This document shows positions 647 through 55,310 of a stretch of 64,000 bases of DNA, piece by piece. Source of the stretch: Roseiflexus sp. (GTDB taxonomy: Bacteria > Chloroflexota > Chloroflexia > Chloroflexales > Roseiflexaceae); assembly GCA_017743475.1 (NCBI GenBank), contig JAGHYV010000001.1, positions 62,001-126,000 on the forward strand, read 5' to 3'. Positions within the stretch are counted from its first letter, which is position 1. Every line of letters begins with the position of its first letter. A program made the position numbers and the translations under genes. The notes under the pieces are model-generated. The model made no database searches. It was not told the DNA's origin and saw nothing but the letters and a program-made list of their open reading frames with translations.

Positions 647-3600
647 TTATTCAATCAGCAACGCACGACGTTCGAGGAGATCGCGCATCGCCGACCTGCC
701 TACCGGATAGTCATGCTCAAAAGTGCGTACCGCCTGCGCGACGATGTCTAGTTCTTCGGCGCTCAAATCCTTCAGCCGGTTATACACGCTATCCTGTCCC
801 CGCAACCCGCCTGGATCGCTGAGAGTGTGATAATGGGGATCACTGGTCATGTACACCCGATCATACTCGAATGCCAGCGCGTAGTGACGGACTGCATAGC
901 GCAAACAATCATCGACCGTCCGAAAATCCGCAGATCTTTCATCGACGAACGACGCAGCGATCCTGGCATACTCCTGTGCGACATCTTTCGCGTTTCCCGC
1001 TGACCGGTCGGGACGCTGATAATGGGCGAAGAGGCGGTGGCCGATCAACATATGGATGCGCGCAAGCTGGTTGAACACCTGGGGATTCTGGATGCTCCGG
1101 TCTCTGGAAACTGGTATCCTATGACGGGTGATCAGATAGTGATCGGGGATCGCTTCACGTGCTGCGACCAGACCCTTCTCGATGATCTCCAGCCGTTCTC
1201 CGTTAGAACCGGCGTAGGCGATATTGACCCAGGCGTCCACCTGACGGAAGACATTGTTGGTCTGGCGTGCAAGGTCGGCGGCGCGTTCCAGCGCCTGCAC
1301 ACTCTGCTGCAGCAGCGTGTCGAGATCGTCTTTTAGCGACAACGGATGATCGCGCTTTATCCTGATGAGATCGCGCAGCGCATGTCCTTTTTCGATCAGC
1401 GATTCGATCTGGCGCGAACGATCACCTATCGCTGCGAAGCGTTCATAGGCAGCATGCGCATAGTCGTGCGCCTCGCGCAGAATCTGTATCCGTTCGGCGG
1501 GATCATCGTCGCGCCTCACCGACCGGCGCAGCACCTCGGCAAGGTTCCGCAGCGCCAGCCCCTGTCCCAGGCGGTACTCGACCGCCTGGAATAATCGCAG
1601 CGCACGCTCGGCATTGACCTGTGCAAGCGTGTAATTGCCAGCATAGACAAGGACGAGTGAGAGGGTGGCGTAACTTAAGCCGATCAATGCAGGTGCACCC
1701 AGTTTCTTGCGGATCGCAAGACTTTCCTCGACCAGCCTCTGGCCATCGGCAAAGCTTCCTTCCTCGCTCTCGACAAATCCGAGATTGTTCAGCGTCCATG
1801 CCAGACAGATCGGCACATCGACCTGTCTCCAGCGAGCAGCGGCACGACGGTAGGCGTCGATTGCCGGACGTACCTGCCCGCGCACCCGTAACCCGAATCC
1901 GCGGGCATGGTGCGCCAGCGCCAGCAGATTTCTGGCGTGCCAGCGTCGCACCTCTGATTTATCAGAAATGATTGGGCTCAGGATCTGTTCGGCTGTATCC
2001 AGCAGGCAATCGGCGCGCTCAAGGTCCTGATCCTCTTTGCTGGCGCGTCCAAGCCGCGCCAGCGCTTCCCAGATATTGAGCGCCGCTTCGGTCGATCCAC
2101 CGGCGGTTTGCAGCGTATGCGGCTCTTCCTGGCGCAGGCGCTGCGCACACTGAATGGCGCCAGCGTAATCATTCTCCCCATACAGGCGCACAACCGGGCG
2201 AATTGTCGCAACACCCAGGACTACATCTCGTTCCAGACCATCAATGAACGATTGCTGTCCTGATGGGTCGCGCTCGTCGAGGAAGACCAGCAGCTCCGCC
2301 TGGATCTGAATGTCGAGCATGGTGTTACCAGTGAATGTCGTGTAGAAACTCAGGCGGACATACTCCCGAAATCCGTCGAGCGGATCGAGCCGCAGGGCGT
2401 AGTACATGCGTTCAACCAGCAGGTGCTGAATCTTTTGCTGCACACCGCCAATGCGCGCGTGATCGAGGTGCGGCGTCACCTGGGCGAAGCGACGTGTCTG
2501 CTCAATCGGGGCGTACAGGTCATCGAGTTGTTTGTTGTACTTGTCGATCTGTTCCTGGTACCACTTAATAATCACCTTGTTGATACGCTCCGCTTCGGGT
2601 GCATCGTCCGGCGCGCTGTAGATCTGCCGCGACAGGATAGTGTACATCTCGTCGTGCAGGAAGTAGCGACCGCCGCGCACCTTGATGAACGACAGACGCC
2701 CAATATTCTCGAGACGTTGGCGCGCGTCATCAACCGGAATGTCAAGCAGATGCGCCAGCAGCTCGTCATCAACGCCTTTTGGCGCACGCCCCAGCATAGG
2801 GAGGGTATCCCGGATGCCTTCAGCGCCCATCATACGCTCGACGATCTGCCGTTCAAGCTCATCACGCGCGCGCACAGGATCGGTTTCGATGTCGAGGGTG
2901 TCGGGCAGTTGCCCAAACCCGGCGATGCTGATGTAATCCGCCAGCAGCGCCAGCATAATCGGCGCGCCGCCGGAGCAGCGGTACACCCGCTCCCTGCGCT
3001 GTGGTGTCAGACTGCGCAGCGTGTCCGCAACTGCCTGCTCACCCGCCTGTTCAGCCGCTCGCGCTACCGCATCTAGGTAGTCGTTTGTTTCCTCCAGCGT
3101 GAACGGTCCCACTTCGATGGGTGTCAGACGAATTGCCGGACGTTGCTCGAGGTCTGGGAAGAGATGGCGAATCTGGTTGCGACCGGCGACCAGAACGGTG
3201 ACGTTCCCCCAGTCGGGCAATGTCTCGACCAGCCACTGCCAGGCTGCGGCCACCTGAAACGGCGGACGTTGCCCGGTAGCGCCGTAGGCGATACGCTCGA
3301 GCGTGTCGAGCGCAAGAACGACACGCTGCGACTGCGAGAAGCGGTTGAAGTCGTTGATGAATGCCTGCAATGCATCCTGTGTTGCTGCGGCGATCTGACG
3401 CACATCCCCCGATGTCTGCGCTTTGGACTGCTGCTCACGTTCCTTCTCAAAGGTGCGGAAGGGACCGCCGTCGGCAACACCCAGTGAGGTGTAGATTGCA
3501 CTGGCAAGCGCGAGACTGCTGTGATACCGGATGTCGTACAGATCGACCGACTGCTGCGCCAGGAGAACACCGGGTTTGCTCCGCTTGAGCGTATCGTTCA

Positions 3601-3757
3601 GGATGCGCGTTTTGCCGATGCCGCCGGGACCGTACAGCGCAATAACGGACGGTCCTGAAGCGTCAGAGAGCGCTGTATCGATCTGTTCGAGGATTGCCCT
3701 GCGCCCGATCAGGTCAGGCGTCGCCCACGCGCCGGTGTAGCGTTCCTCCTCGTTCAT
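647..3757 (-). CDS. STAND-type NTPase with TPR-like C-terminal half
   Basis: About 1036 residues. The N-terminal third is an NB-ARC/AAA-like signalling ATPase: Walker A GPGGIGKT at 43-50, a hydrophobic Walker B strand VVLALDTLER at about 146-155, and an Arg-bearing sensor strand VLVAGRN at about 190-194. A winged-helix-like region follows. The C-terminal half is alpha-helical with TPR-like repeats (for example LNNLGFVESEEGSFADG and ATLSLVLVYAGNYTLA) that would bind a partner or ligand. Start choice: ATG 3757 has GGGGGAGGT at 3762-3770 just upstream; the frame stays open further up but would overlap the previous gene. It is the last gene of the five-gene cluster, 13 bp after its neighbour. STAND proteins usually oligomerise on signal sensing; the signal here is unknown. 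Confidence 0.8.
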   Translation of the reverse strand: MNEEERYTGAWATPDLIGRRAILEQIDTALSDASGPSVIALYGPGGIGKTRILNDTLKRSKPGVLLAQQSVDLYDIRYHSSLALASAIYTSLGVADGGPFRTFEKEREQQSKAQTSGDVRQIAAATQDALQAFINDFNRFSQSQRVVLALDTLERIAYGATGQRPPFQVAAAWQWLVETLPDWGNVTVLVAGRNQIRHLFPDLEQRPAIRLTPIEVGPFTLEETNDYLDAVARAAEQAGEQAVADTLRSLTPQRRERVYRCSGGAPIMLALLADYISIAGFGQLPDTLDIETDPVRARDELERQIVERMMGAEGIRDTLPMLGRAPKGVDDELLAHLLDIPVDDARQRLENIGRLSFIKVRGGRYFLHDEMYTILSRQIYSAPDDAPEAERINKVIIKWYQEQIDKYNKQLDDLYAPIEQTRRFAQVTPHLDHARIGGVQQKIQHLLVERMYYALRLDPLDGFREYVRLSFYTTFTGNTMLDIQIQAELLVFLDERDPSGQQSFIDGLERDVVLGVATIRPVVRLYGENDYAGAIQCAQRLRQEEPHTLQTAGGSTEAALNIWEALARLGRASKEDQDLERADCLLDTAEQILSPIISDKSEVRRWHARNLLALAHHARGFGLRVRGQVRPAIDAYRRAAARWRQVDVPICLAWTLNNLGFVESEEGSFADGQRLVEESLAIRKKLGAPALIGLSYATLSLVLVYAGNYTLAQVNAERALRLFQAVEYRLGQGLALRNLAEVLRRSVRRDDDPAERIQILREAHDYAHAAYERFAAIGDRSRQIESLIEKGHALRDLIRIKRDHPLSLKDDLDTLLQQSVQALERAADLARQTNNVFRQVDAWVNIAYAGSNGERLEIIEKGLVAAREAIPDHYLITRHRIPVSRDRSIQNPQVFNQLARIHMLIGHRLFAHYQRPDRSAGNAKDVAQEYARIAASFVDERSADFRTVDDCLRYAVRHYALAFEYDRVYMTSDPHYHTLSDPGGLRGQDSVYNRLKDLSAEELDIVAQAVRTFEHDYPVGRSAMRDLLERRALLIE

Positions 3758-3770
3758 AGGGACCTCCCCC

Positions 3771-5144
3771 TTATTCATCGGAATAACCAGCGTCTTCCCC
3801 CAGGACGCCGCGATGGTATGCGGCGCGCTGATCGAAGTACCCACGGCTGCCCGGATACTTCTGTGCCCATTCTGCGTACAGGTCTGCCGCACGCTTGTGT
3901 AGACATCTCCAGACGTCCTTGCGTTGTAATTTCAGGTACTGTTCGAGCACGATGCGAACCGCTTCGTCGAGAACGTACCGTTTATCCTGCCAGCGCACCA
4001 GGTTGGTTTCGATGAGGCGATCGCGCAACTCACGCATAGCCGACATTGAGTATTCTGAACCTTCCGGTTTTGTGTTACGCAGCGCTGCCAGCAGATAGGG
4101 CATCTCGTTTTCGCGGAACCCATCTTTGAGCACGCACAGCGCATTGAAAATGTCACCCAGACTGTGACGCTGGTCTCCTGGCACGACCTCCAGCAGGCGG
4201 CGCGCGACCTCTTCCAGAACCTTGGCATCGATGGGCTCACTGTCGAGCGCCTGTGCGAGACTCTCATCCCCCGGCATTCTGTCGAGTGCCTGACGCACGA
4301 ATGCGCTGGCAAGCAACTCATTCGTCAGCGGATACCCGCCACCCAGATCGATCACCTGCTGTGCAAACCGTGTAAGCGCCTCATTGGACAGACCGGCGAC
4401 CGCAGGCGGGAGATCGGGTGCGTTGCTGAGTGATCGTCGTATCTGCTCGGCAACCTGTTCGGTGGAGAAGGGGGTGAGCGATTGTTCTTCACGTTCGGTG
4501 CGCAGATAGGGCGACTTCCAGAGGTACGGGCGCCCACGGCCCGTCATGACAATCAGGACACGCGGCAGCGCTGCAAACGCGGCGAGCAGGTATCGTTCCA
4601 GATGATCTAGAAAACTCCAGTTCGTTTCAAAAACAGAGTCCAGAATCAGACAGATCACCAAGTGTGGTTCTGATTCCAGCTTCTTCTTGACATCTTGCGC
4701 CAGCCATGCGGAGAGATCGCGCACTGGCGCGTAAGGAGCGCGAACGACATCGAGTTGTTCTGCAACCCAGGCGACCAATTTCTGGAGCAGCGCTTCGTAG
4801 TACGTCTCATCCTCCCCGGCGATCCTGTGCACATCATCGTGGGTGATATGCCACTCTCGTTCATCAACCGTCAACCCCTCAGGCGGCGGTGTAAGGCTGA
4901 CCAGCAGCGATACAATGCGATAGTCTGGCAGCAGGTGGGGCGCCGCTTCTCGCAAAACAAATCGATGGAGATGCAATGCCAGCCAGCTTTTGCCCAACCC
5001 GCGTTCACCACGGAACACGATCGTTCGCATCTGTTCGGAGTCCCCACGTGCAATGTTCTGAAGCGCATTGGTCACCGTCTTGATCTCGTTCTCACGGTTG
5101 ACAAAAAGATTCAGACGGTAGACCGGCGGATCGGTCAGTGCCAT
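3771..5144 (-). CDS. P-loop signalling ATPase (NACHT/AAA-like)
   Basis: 457 residues. Walker A GERGLGKS at 46-53, Walker B-like strand LVICLILDSV at about 162-171, and an Arg-containing strand IVMTGRGR at about 198-205. After the ATPase core comes a helical, winged-helix-like region ending in a tail (residues about 410-457) with HKRAADLYAEWAQKYPG and AAYHRGVLG, a pattern seen where NACHT-type ATPases pass into helical repeats. ATG 5144 is preferred because GGGAGG lies 7 bases upstream; upstream in-frame codons would run into the next gene. It sits between another P-loop gene (79 bp) and the TPR ATPase (13 bp), so co-transcription is likely. No effector domain is visible. Confidence 0.75.
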   Translation of the reverse strand: MALTDPPVYRLNLFVNRENEIKTVTNALQNIARGDSEQMRTIVFRGERGLGKSWLALHLHRFVLREAAPHLLPDYRIVSLLVSLTPPPEGLTVDEREWHITHDDVHRIAGEDETYYEALLQKLVAWVAEQLDVVRAPYAPVRDLSAWLAQDVKKKLESEPHLVICLILDSVFETNWSFLDHLERYLLAAFAALPRVLIVMTGRGRPYLWKSPYLRTEREEQSLTPFSTEQVAEQIRRSLSNAPDLPPAVAGLSNEALTRFAQQVIDLGGGYPLTNELLASAFVRQALDRMPGDESLAQALDSEPIDAKVLEEVARRLLEVVPGDQRHSLGDIFNALCVLKDGFRENEMPYLLAALRNTKPEGSEYSMSAMRELRDRLIETNLVRWQDKRYVLDEAVRIVLEQYLKLQRKDVWRCLHKRAADLYAEWAQKYPGSRGYFDQRAAYHRGVLGEDAGYSDE

Positions 5145-50049: not shown

Positions 50050-50867
50050 ATGCTAGAGATCGATATCCAGCGGTTGCAACACCAGATTGAAACAGTCGTT
50101 CACACGCAACCTGACGTGCGCCTTGTCTACCTCTTCGGGTCGCAGGTGAGCGGGGTGACCGGTCCGCTTAGCGATATCGATCTGGCAGTGTTGCTGGCGC
50201 ACGAGGCGTCAGCAATGCACGTCTTCGCGCAGTTGGAACATCTCTTTTCTCTGGCGCTGGAAGGGCAGGCTGTGGACGTTGTCATCCTCAACCAAGCGCC
50301 AATCGAATTGGCATATGCGGTCATTGCTGAGGGCAGGATCATCTACCAGCGTTCAATTGCCGAACGGGTCGAGTATGAAGCAAAGGTTATGAGTCGCTAC
50401 AGGGATTTTCTGCCCTTCCTGCGTGCGCAACGTCAGGACATTGTGAAGGGAGCGGGCAATGAGCGTCGAGTTCAGCGTATCGAGAGGCGCTTAGACGAAC
50501 TCAGCGAGTGCTTGGCGCGTCTGGCGCCGCTCCGCGTCCGACCGAAGACTGAGTTTATGAGCGATCCGTATCTGCGCGGCATCGTGGAGCGTAATCTGGA
50601 AGTGGCGGCGCAGTGCTGCATCGACATCTGCCACCGGATTATCACGCTGGAAGGTGCCCAGAAACCTACTATGAAGCGATTCTGCGTATGGGAGAACTGG
50701 GCGTGTTGCCGCCGGACTTCGCCGGACGCCTTGCTCCAATTGCCGGTCTGCGGAATATTCTGATCCATAAATATCTGACGGTAGATTGGGACGAGGTGTA
50801 CACAAACCTGGCGAAACTGGATGACCTGTCGCATTTTGCTAACCTGATCCGCAGGTGGTTTGGATGA
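50050..50867 (+). pseudogene. MntA-HepT module fused into one frame and frameshifted
   Basis: Residues 1-115 are a nucleotidyltransferase (FGSQVSGVTGPLSDIDLAVL). At about residue 138 (NERRVQRIERR) the frame passes without a stop into a DUF86/HEPN (HepT) sequence (LDELSECLARLAPLR, YLRGIVERNLEVAAQCCI). Near 50665-50672 coding shifts frame, and the rest continues in another frame as ILRMGELGVLPPDFAGRLAP and GLRNILIHKYLTVDWDEVY. This contains the RX4HXY motif, where the Tyr is AMPylated in HepT. Normally MntA and HepT are separate genes. The join probably arose by deletion between RVQR-like sequences. Confidence 0.75.
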
Positions 50868-52058: not shown

Positions 52059-52545
52059 TCTTGTGGTTCAATGTCACAGCACCCGAAGCCGCGAAATGTG
52101 CACAATTCGCTGCTGCATATCCGCTGGCGGCAGGCCGCAAGCACCTGAAGAATGCGCTCACCAGAGTCTTCTCGCTCGTAAGTGCCCTTTTCTCTTCTGG
52201 CAACGTGCGAAGGGCAGCGCTGCTAACAGTTCTCACGGAGGTAGTGCCACGTTAGGTTGAATTTTACACTTTTTGCGACTTGTCTTTTACGCGCAAACAC
52301 GGGTTTGGTCTGGTGTAAAATTCGCCCTAACACGATACTGGTTGACGCCCACCGACACCTCTAGCGTGATCGCGGTTGCCAGACCAACATAACATCATCG
52401 CCAGGAAGAGCCGACGGTCGCTCGCCGCATAATAGCCGCTTTTGTCGTGATTGACACGCTGATGGAACAACTGAGGCATTGCAGTGATGTGTGGGCGCGG
52501 GTCCCCGACTCGGAGATCCTGACGATTGCGGTCGTCGCCGCTGGA

Positions 52546-52636
52546 GAAGAGAAGTGAGCGAAGAGGAAAGAGGAGTGAGAGTCGCTCGTCACGCACGTCC
52601 GTCTCGCTTCTCTTTTCTCTTCCCTCACTTCTTGTC
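52546..52636. repeat. Purine-rich inverted repeat R6 inside the transposase remnant
   Basis: AAGTGAGCGAAGAGGAAAGA on the left pairs with CTCTTTTCTCTTCCCTCACT on the right, about 24 of 28 positions. One arm recurs at 37908-37950. Confidence 0.6.
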
Positions 52637-52756
52637 GTGCACGGGCGTCGCTGTCGGTCCGAGCGAATCGGCGTCGCGCGCTTCAATCGTCGCTTGCATC
52701 AGCTCACCGATTGGATGGCCTGGATTCCGGAGGTGTTGGGGGAGGTGTTCAGGTCA

Positions 52757-52777
52757 GGGCGCAGCGGTGCTGCGCCC
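52757..52777. repeat. GC-rich hairpin related to the one after dnaE
   Basis: GGGCGCAGC and GCTGCGCCC with a 3-base loop, the same stem as at 35358-35378, inserted in the transposase remnant. Confidence 0.6.
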
Positions 52778-53301
52778 ATACGTCATCATCGCTAGCCTTC
52801 CCCTGCCGGTGTGCCGCCGGGTACGCGCCCAACCCCGCCGGAAGGCGCGCAGACGCGAATGCTGCGGGTATTGTGCGGCGAAATGGGAGAAGTTCTTTGG
52901 GTAGCGTTTGCATCTGGTCTGCCGACCAGATGGCGTGCCCGTGCGCGTTCAGATGCTGCCCGCAGGGGTGCACGACCATACGCCCGTGCACGCATTGGCG
53001 TATGGTCTGCCTGCTGGGACGCGGCTGTCGGGCGTCCGTAGTCCGTAACGGCGAATAATTATTCGCCGCAACAGCGCCGCTGATGCGGCGAACATCCTGG
53101 CGGAAACGGGAGTGCGACTGACCCCGGTGCGCCGGGCGAAGATGCGTCCGCACGTCTGGTGTATGGACGCCATCGAAGTGCGCGCGTATCGTCATACGAT
53201 TGAGACGGTCAACAGTCAACTGGAGAAGATGGGTATTAAGCGGTTCTATGCACGCACGAATGCCGGGTTTGCACTGAAGGTGCATGCAACGCTCATTGCG
53301 C

Positions 53302-54534
53302 TCATCTGTACGAACATGAACGAGCAATCAAGGTAGCTCTTGTCATCGCAATGAGGCTCAAGACCCCTATACTCATACCCAAGCCACTCATGGCATGGCG
53401 TATCTCAGCGGGTGGGATTGTGATGCCCAGCGAGAGGATAACGAGACTAGAGGTAACTCGATTAGCTACGGACGACAATACGGATACACGCCCAACGTAG
53501 GCCCCATCCGTGACTTCTAGCACTCTGGCGTTGACGAGGATGGCCACCGTGTCGGAAATTAGCCCAACAGTGGCCACAAGGAATATCCCGATGGCTGACG
53601 GTACGTTGGCGACAGCAACGGTCAGACCCCCGGCAATTGCGATGGCTCCCCAGATGAGAGAATCCTGGAACCGTCGGCTCTTCCCTTTCCCTAACACGAT
53701 ACTTGCAATCACTCCGCCTCCGGCAAATGCTGCGAAAGCAAGTCCCAAATCCCTGGCGCCTCCCCAAAACTCCTGGGCCAGAATGGGTAAACCAAAGGCG
53801 TAAGCGGGGATCAGTAAGTTGAGTGTTGCCATCATAGCGATTGGGCGAAGAGCCTCTGGCGTACGCTTTAGGTAGCGGAAACCTTCCACCGCAAGCTGCC
53901 ATTGGGTAGCCTCCTGCTGCTGGCTCGAAGTCCCTAAGGGCAGCCGAGCTAACGCACTCATTGCAGCTGCCAAGGCGAAAGACAAGCCGTTTAGGAGCAG
54001 GGCCGCCACTGTGCCCAAGCCCGAGACCACGAGGCCACCCGCGATCCAGCCTACGATGCGCGCAGTTAATTGTAGCCCTCGATCGAGGGCGTAAAGCTTT
54101 TGCAGATCGTAACCCTCACTCTCAAAAGCTTTGAGGAGCCCGGCTTTAGCGCCGATATACCACATCCTAAGCAGGGCTTCCAAGAAAGCCACAACAAGCA
54201 GCAAAGATACGCTTAGCCATCCGCGAGCCAAACTATCAGTGAAAGCTGCAATGAAGTACAGAAGAGCGCGGCCTACATCCAAGAAAACGACCGCCGTGAG
54301 CTTGCTGTATTTGTCGGCGAGCGCTCCTACCCAAGGGCCCGTGAGCGCTTCAGGTATGATGGAGACCAAAAGGGCGAATGCAACGCTTAAGGAAGAGCCT
54401 GTTTCCCTCAAAGCGAGCAAAGGTAAAGCAATCCCCCAAACGCTGGAGCCTACAGCAGAAAGAAACTGTCCGCTCCAATATAGGCGAATACGGGGGTCTC
54501 TTACTAAACTCAGAACTTCCCTTCCTTCTCCCAC
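53302..54534 (-). CDS. MFS-family efflux transporter
   Basis: 410 residues with about twelve membrane helices. LYWSGQFLSAVGSSVWGIAL and GPWVGALADKYSKLTAVVFLD form the usual start and loop 2-3 motif. It belongs to the enterobactin/macrolide-exporter-like MFS subgroup. It lies inside the candidate mobile unit and has slightly lower GC than neighbours, so it is probably cargo acquired by transfer. The last residues may be read from IS sequence. GTG 54534 overlaps the end of an upstream remnant. Confidence 0.85.
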   Translation of the reverse strand: MGEGREVLSLVRDPRIRLYWSGQFLSAVGSSVWGIALPLLALRETGSSLSVAFALLVSIIPEALTGPWVGALADKYSKLTAVVFLDVGRALLYFIAAFTDSLARGWLSVSLLLVVAFLEALLRMWYIGAKAGLLKAFESEGYDLQKLYALDRGLQLTARIVGWIAGGLVVSGLGTVAALLLNGLSFALAAAMSALARLPLGTSSQQQEATQWQLAVEGFRYLKRTPEALRPIAMMATLNLLIPAYAFGLPILAQEFWGGARDLGLAFAAFAGGGVIASIVLGKGKSRRFQDSLIWGAIAIAGGLTVAVANVPSAIGIFLVATVGLISDTVAILVNARVLEVTDGAYVGRVSVLSSVANRVTSSLVILSLGITIPPAEIRHAMSGLGMSIGVLSLIAMTRATLIARSCSYR

Positions 54535-54761
54535 TGCGAAATCAAGTCTTCCATTGCTGGCTGCTCACCTGTTTCCTCAAGTAGAGGCAACTGACTGGCC
54601 ACGAATATACGCGCTACCCCTGCGCGCCAGAAATGATGTGGATCAACCCCTTTGGCCTTCATCCAACGAGCAGCGCGGACAACGTTGCTCGGATCGACTA
54701 TCTTGCCCCAATACGATAACAGAGCAGCCGCGACTTCCCCTCCGGAGCTCGCAGTATCTGA
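54510..54761 (-). pseudogene. C-terminal remnant of an unknown gene before the MFS gene
   Basis: An open stretch without a start codon encodes EVAAALLSYWGKIVDPSNVV, RWMKAKGVDPHHFWRAG and ends EDLISQWEKEGKF. It has good coding character but its upstream part is cut by a TAA and by the element end. Its stop overlaps the MFS start, so it was once an operon partner. The family is unknown. Confidence 0.5.
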
Positions 54762-54876
54762 TTATGTTTTGAGTTCAAAATTCCTAACTGCACTTCAACC
54801 AAACTCGACAGACGTGCAGAGCCGGTATCGACCCATACGGTAAAATAGTGTAAAATTCAACCTAACGTGGCAGTAG

Positions 54877-55263
54877 TTACGCGCGCCCGGAACGAAACTC
54901 CGGCGGAAACTCACGCAGGTTGCGTTGTGGATCGAGACAGGTCAGTTCCACGTCGGCTTCCACGTACACCTGTCCATCGCGCTCGACGCGCTGCTTGAAC
55001 AGCCCACGGTACGGTGATTGCAGGCTGAATGTGGAAACAACTTCGAGCGTGTCGCCGAGTTGCGCAGCACGCTTGAAACGAATGTTCATCGCATAAACGA
55101 CAATGTAGTATCCCAGCCGATTCCACTCCCAGATTGGCTTGCCGAACAGTTCGACATACTCGCTGCGCGCTCGTTCCATGTATTTCAGGTAGTTGGCGTG
55201 ATAAACGACGCCCAGGGCGTCAGTGTCTTCATAGTAGACTTTGCAGATCAGACGGTGCTCCAC
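54877..55263 (-). CDS. YbgC-type acyl-CoA thioesterase
   Basis: 128 residues of a hot-dog fold. The catalytic N-terminal motif YYEDTDALGVVYHANYLKYM includes the active Asp and His-Ala-Asn turn. It hydrolyses short acyl-CoA or acyl-ACP. GTG 55263 has AGGAG upstream, better than the TTG at 55284. The candidate mobile element ends 4 bases beyond its stop. Confidence 0.9.
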   Translation of the reverse strand: MEHRLICKVYYEDTDALGVVYHANYLKYMERARSEYVELFGKPIWEWNRLGYYIVVYAMNIRFKRAAQLGDTLEVVSTFSLQSPYRGLFKQRVERDGQVYVEADVELTCLDPQRNLREFPPEFRSGRA

Positions 55264-55310
55264 GCAGACTCCTGTTCGCTTCAATCACGGTACAGCATAC
55301 ACATGACCCC

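Follow-up and report, generated by a model that had tools for sequence, protein, structure and literature searches.

The segment at 52245-54872 of the window, as we call the whole 64-kb stretch of DNA analysed, is best read as a non-autonomous transposable unit with IS21-like ends, of the mobile insertion cassette type, which carries an MFS transporter gene, would have been moved in trans, and would have lost its right half in the related genome G002. We consider this reading rather probable as a whole. The unit is probably immobile today, and is probably an eroded old representative of a gene cassette type that is already known. Its features and their immediate surroundings are as follows.

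52241-52244, no strand: GTAG, left copy, presumed target-site repeat (from the sequence)
52245-52270, plus strand: left terminal inverted repeat, beginning TG, IS21-like (plasmid matches to IS21 istB ends; top tile for an unselected IS21 istA-side end)
52282-52292, plus strand: possible second direct repeat within the left end (ACAC/ACGC spacing; a weak reading of our own)
52313-52331, minus strand: inner inverted copy of the end core (core search)
52338-53335, plus strand: putative dead IS982-family relic, right end kept, left end missing (homology to six other copies; NF033520 on pieces; broken frames)
53302-54534, minus strand: MFS transporter ORF, 410 aa (PF07690, 3.9e-13; TIGR00900, 110 bits against a cut-off of 319.6)
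54510-54761, minus strand: 83-codon open stretch that overlaps the MFS start and extends upstream from it (ORF; no Pfam match up to E 5)
54847-54872, minus strand: right terminal inverted repeat, its 26 bp identical to the left, no clear second repeat (from the sequence)
54873-54876, no strand: GTAG, right copy, presumed target-site repeat (from the sequence)
54877-55284, minus strand: YbgC/FadM-type thioesterase, a neighbour outside the unit (TIGR00051, 83.9 bits against a cut-off of 68.7; PF13279)

The two terminal repeats are reverse complements of one another with zero mismatches over 26 bp, remain 94% alike when extended to 33 bp, and give the unit TG...CA termini. GTAG flanks the unit immediately on both sides, and the stop codon of the thioesterase begins at 54877, abutting the right GTAG. 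Perfect 26-bp ends, GTAG flanks and a border exactly beside the thioesterase stop codon had all been proposed in an earlier sequence-only reading, and each was confirmed. Among exact inverted repeats whose arms measure 18 bp or more and lie 200-8000 bp apart, this is the only one in the window. With up to three mismatches allowed, the end core GTTAGGNNGAATTTTACAC occurs three times in the window, always within the unit, compared with a mean of 0.03 in shuffled sequence (n=100); the third copy, which the earlier reading does not mention, is inverted and lies 43 bp inward from the left end. The same reading had named a wider repeat as an alternative source of the ends, and the left end with its preceding 182 bp was not part of one in the 20 genomes searched. 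The hairpin at 52245-52332 was considered as a separate mini-element and rejected, since on our own reading its inner side shows no direct repeat to match.

The idea that the ends are of IS21 type preceded the plasmid search, and was prompted by the TG...CA termini, the 4-bp repeat and the repeated end motifs. Plasmids were searched by blastn, using the left 100 bp as query, which returned six records; five of these lie at the istB-side end of IS21 elements, while the sixth (Sulfitobacter) lies at a cytochrome gene. The left-end 36 bp alone matched 11 records, eight of them at IS21 istB ends (Priestia 6, Cytobacillus 1, Exiguobacterium 1); these eight are related Bacillales elements and not independent cases, and three of them were placed through the same records in the 100-bp search. 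The other three have no annotated IS21 gene within 4 kb. E-values for the left end were weak throughout (0.3-4). The Priestia IS21 end reads TGTAGACGTCAAGTCGAATTTTACACTTTTTGC and the left end in the window TGCCACGTTAGGTTGAATTTTACACTTTTTGC. With the right end, 42 plasmid records were found, and among the 12 listed none was at an IS21 feature; these 12 match the interior of the unit and not the repeat.

As an independent check we used the istA-side end of the Priestia IS21 element, which was picked without regard to similarity with the window. In local alignments against 2134 tiles of 120 bp, the left-end tiles scored 28 and 26, the right-end tiles 23 and 23, and the next tile 20. In an nhmmer search with three istA-side ends, the left end had rank 1 (E 0.55) and the right end rank 7 (E 17). 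An end profile that scored the three core copies best (4.4e-6, 0.0057 and 0.71) was set aside as circular, having been built from matches to these same ends. The IS21 ends described in the excerpts we used of PMC10122671 and PMC11208146 have two repeats each, both required by IstA. In the left end of the unit a second repeat is plausible, at a distance of 23 bp (24 bp in the compared IS21 ends), and the right end has no clear one. On these alignments the IS21 likeness appears modestly supported for the left end, and for the right end mainly through its identity with the left.

The unit shares with the Bacillales members of the IS21 family its TG...CA ends, an end sequence of the form ACGT-A-GT-GAATTTTACACTTTTTGC and, at the left, a possible second repeat; it differs from them in the right end, where a second repeat is not clear, and in lacking istA and istB. 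It is not an IS21 element, because both of these genes are missing. Seven IS21 loci from the family and order of this genome, compared over 3.4-3.9 kb that may not contain both ends, lacked the motif.

The transposase sequence within the unit is of a different kind. Six sister copies of the same element were compared, four in G002 and two in the genome of the window (G000), which have the ends ACCTTGATTGC...GCAATCAAGGT and target repeats of 5 or 6 bp. The IS982 transposase profile NF033520 matched pieces of one sister copy (8.8e-12 and 1.3e-9) and a piece of the window copy (3.2e-9), all below the curated cut-off. The AC...GT ends, length of 0.7-1.0 kb and short direct repeats (5-6 bp, in six copies) of the sister copies agree with the description of the IS982 family, as given in the part of PMC7335449 that we consulted. 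The window copy differs from them in that its frames are broken, its left end is cut off and its right end alone survives. Judged by this homology, the transposase inside the unit is a dead relic of the IS982 family, another family than the one the ends resemble, which agrees with the earlier suggestion that it is dead and of another type. Movement in trans is the natural reading, because the dead transposase inside differs in family from the ends.

Two palindromic sequences were also seen in this part of the unit: a repeat of ~83 bp (52550-52632) inserted in the relic, to which a stretch at another place in G002 is related, and a short palindrome around CGGCGAATAATTATTCGCCG (53049-53073) that recurs at many places in G002. 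The G002 relic holds an extra insertion of ~1.4 kb (about 2660-4060 of locus L036), which is absent from the window copy.

The cargo is the MFS transporter gene, as had been proposed, and its profile match to PF07690 leaves that assignment in place. The ORF also matches the Mef(A) and Mef(B) exporter profiles, below cut-off, and its final codons extend into the IS982 right end. Relatives in 20 genomes share at most 32% identity (best E 6.4e-17). At E≤1e-30, no genome among 400 of the phylum other than that of the window had the gene, and a plasmid search for a donor gave no match. The 83-codon open stretch at 54510-54761 may be what remains, at the 3' end, of a gene that was lost. Two 15-base words from the left half are repeated exactly inside the MFS gene, one directly (52325-52339 and 53689-53703) and one inverted (52404-52418 and 53670-53684), both within one 34-bp stretch of it. 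At least one such word was present in 10 of 3000 synonymous shuffles of the MFS gene. As controls, the MFS part was compared with 48 other blocks of the window and shared a word of 14 or more bases with none, and the left part shared one 15-base word with one of 34 other blocks. We found no mechanism for the two recurring words.

No similarity to IstA or IstB was detected in the 64-kb window. Across the 20 genomes searched, IstA passed the curated cut-off in four, none of which was among the six of the genus, where weak partial matches were the most that was seen. The stronger IstB-profile matches within the genus, frames of 324 aa that all six genomes possess, would be DnaC-like loaders. The sequence-only reading had proposed looking for the ends elsewhere. 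With up to three mismatches allowed, in the genome of the window (a draft of 206 contigs, from which a repeated element could be missing) and 19 relatives, they were found here and otherwise as a left end alone at the same locus of G002, whose genome is one contig of 5,801,598 bp. Searches of 301 and 400 genomes of the phylum, the latter by exact core, likewise returned the genome of the window and G002 and no others. An exact-pattern scan of a genome collection gave seven single matches in unrelated taxa, with no second copy at up to three mismatches and no IstA/IstB similarity. Three end searches of viral contigs gave one, four and one stretches, with neither IstA/IstB similarity nor a second unit; one viral contig without IS21 genes contains GAATTTTACACTTTTTGC exactly. 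As for an autonomous element with the same ends, similar but not identical ends occur in Bacillales plasmids, and the exact core search of 400 phylum genomes revealed none. An empty site joining 52244 to 54877 with one GTAG, the other proposed check, was not found in the genomes searched.

G002 carries, at the corresponding position, this GTAG together with the left end and the IS982 relic, but lacks both the MFS gene and the right end. Identity between G000 and G002 is 94.6% in the neighbouring ORF, 87.4% in the 182 bp before the unit, 99.0% in the left end with GTAG, 97.2, 94.2, 89.9 and 78.2% in four parts of the IS982 relic, 100% in its last 25 bp, 95.8% in the thioesterase and 92.7% in CrtC. 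The two relics are one old insertion, because they have in common private insertions and a right-end change that are absent from the six other IS982 copies. The stretch with 78% identity resembles other IS982 copies of G002, which suggests a conversion patch. As G002 shares only the left end and the relic with the unit, the left half is old, the locus was rearranged later, and a clean recent insertion does not account for the unit.

The two genomes diverge exactly at the IS982 right end, where G000 continues into the MFS gene, whereas G002 has 42 bp and then the thioesterase, with no GTAG between relic and thioesterase. The likeness of these 42 bp to the right end of the unit is weak. Their local alignment score was equalled in 133 shuffles of the stretch and in 120 of the target (5000 each), and by one of 1264 window pieces; a global alignment gave no signal. 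In G004 some 10 bp separate the ends of the neighbouring ORF and the thioesterase, with neither the unit nor the 182-bp spacer. This is an older state of the locus, but not the empty site with one GTAG. In G003 and G005 the neighbouring ORF is not beside the thioesterase in the stretch compared.

We infer the following course of events. Two ends lying around the MFS gene and some neighbouring DNA would have been cut in trans by an IstA/IstB pair and joined to a staggered target; this would have left a GTAG at each border, just past the thioesterase stop codon. This insertion may have preceded the split of the G000 and G002 lineages, or the unit may have been exchanged between them. An IS982 copy lies against the 3' end of the MFS gene and would have decayed within the cassette. 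In G002 the right half would have been lost, most simply by a deletion starting at the IS982 right end. Of the earlier proposal of a mobile unit moved in trans, the IS21-like ends, the IS982 relic inside and the 4-bp direct repeat make movement in trans the natural reading. The missing empty site and the confinement of the ends, in 20 genomes, to this locus and its G002 counterpart do not favour the proposal, and the history of the locus speaks against a clean recent insertion.

The order of events could be reversed if the G002 state were the older, with the left end and relic present first and a 1.5-kb segment of MFS gene and right end added later beside the IS982 right end. The content of G002, the divergence exactly at that point and the confinement of the MFS gene to the genome of the window among 400 would all fit, but such an addition leaves unexplained why the right end copies the left exactly and is positioned for a direct GTAG repeat, and G002 lacks a GTAG between relic and thioesterase; we regard it as unlikely. 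In a further account, by accident, no transposition occurred and the left end was copied in inverted form through template switching or the like. It could draw on the single such pair in the genome searched and on the inverted third core copy 43 bp inside the left end. A copied flank, however, predicts an inverted GTAG, whereas the observed one is direct, and a chance direct 4-bp repeat right at the border would occur in about 1 in 256 cases by our own arithmetic; we hold this account to be very improbable.

It is also conceivable, if quite unlikely, that the segment is a true transposable unit whose ends belong to another or undescribed family, their short likeness to IS21 being fortuitous. 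The weak plasmid E-values point in this direction, as do the exact motif in the viral contig and its absence from every IS21 of the order in the short loci compared. Against this, IS21 ends in five of six and eight of 11 plasmid records are unlikely by chance, yet these records are related Bacillales elements.

Returning to a cassette moved in trans by an IS21-type transposase, the nearest known counterparts are the mobile insertion cassettes, such as MIC231 of Bacillus cereus and mic-qnrD, for which we follow the definition in the consulted part of PMC3913671. Like these, the unit has two inverted repeats, a passenger gene, a target-site repeat and no matching transposase inside. It differs in that its ends are IS21-like and not IS231, no helper was found in the genus, it contains an IS982 relic, it is a single eroded copy, and its movement in trans is presumed. 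All the structural features of a mobile insertion cassette that were tested are present in the unit, namely the repeats, a passenger without matching transposase and GTAG on both sides. A literature search, including the portions seen of PMC3913671 and PMC3281130, found no cassette with IS21-type ends, and it is plausible that these add a new type of end to an established class of cassettes.

What makes the cassette interesting is mainly the likeness of its ends to an element family that was not found in close relatives. A broader proposal, which we put forward tentatively and think somewhat doubtful, is that foreign genes can be carried by IS21-family transposases in cassettes without a transposase, and that the MFS exporter gene reached this lineage from outside in a cassette of this sort, whose ends are closest to those of IS21 elements in Bacillales. 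If true, a family that needs a helper ATPase would join those able to move passenger genes in trans. Annotation seeks transposase genes, so that transposase-free cassettes are easily overlooked, and the locus illustrates how such a unit may be eroded by other insertion sequences.

Elsewhere in the window, at 50050-50763, a nucleotidyltransferase (Polbeta) domain (PF18765) is followed in one frame by a HepT-like match (PF01934), an arrangement that we take to be as in MNT/HepT toxin-antitoxin pairs.
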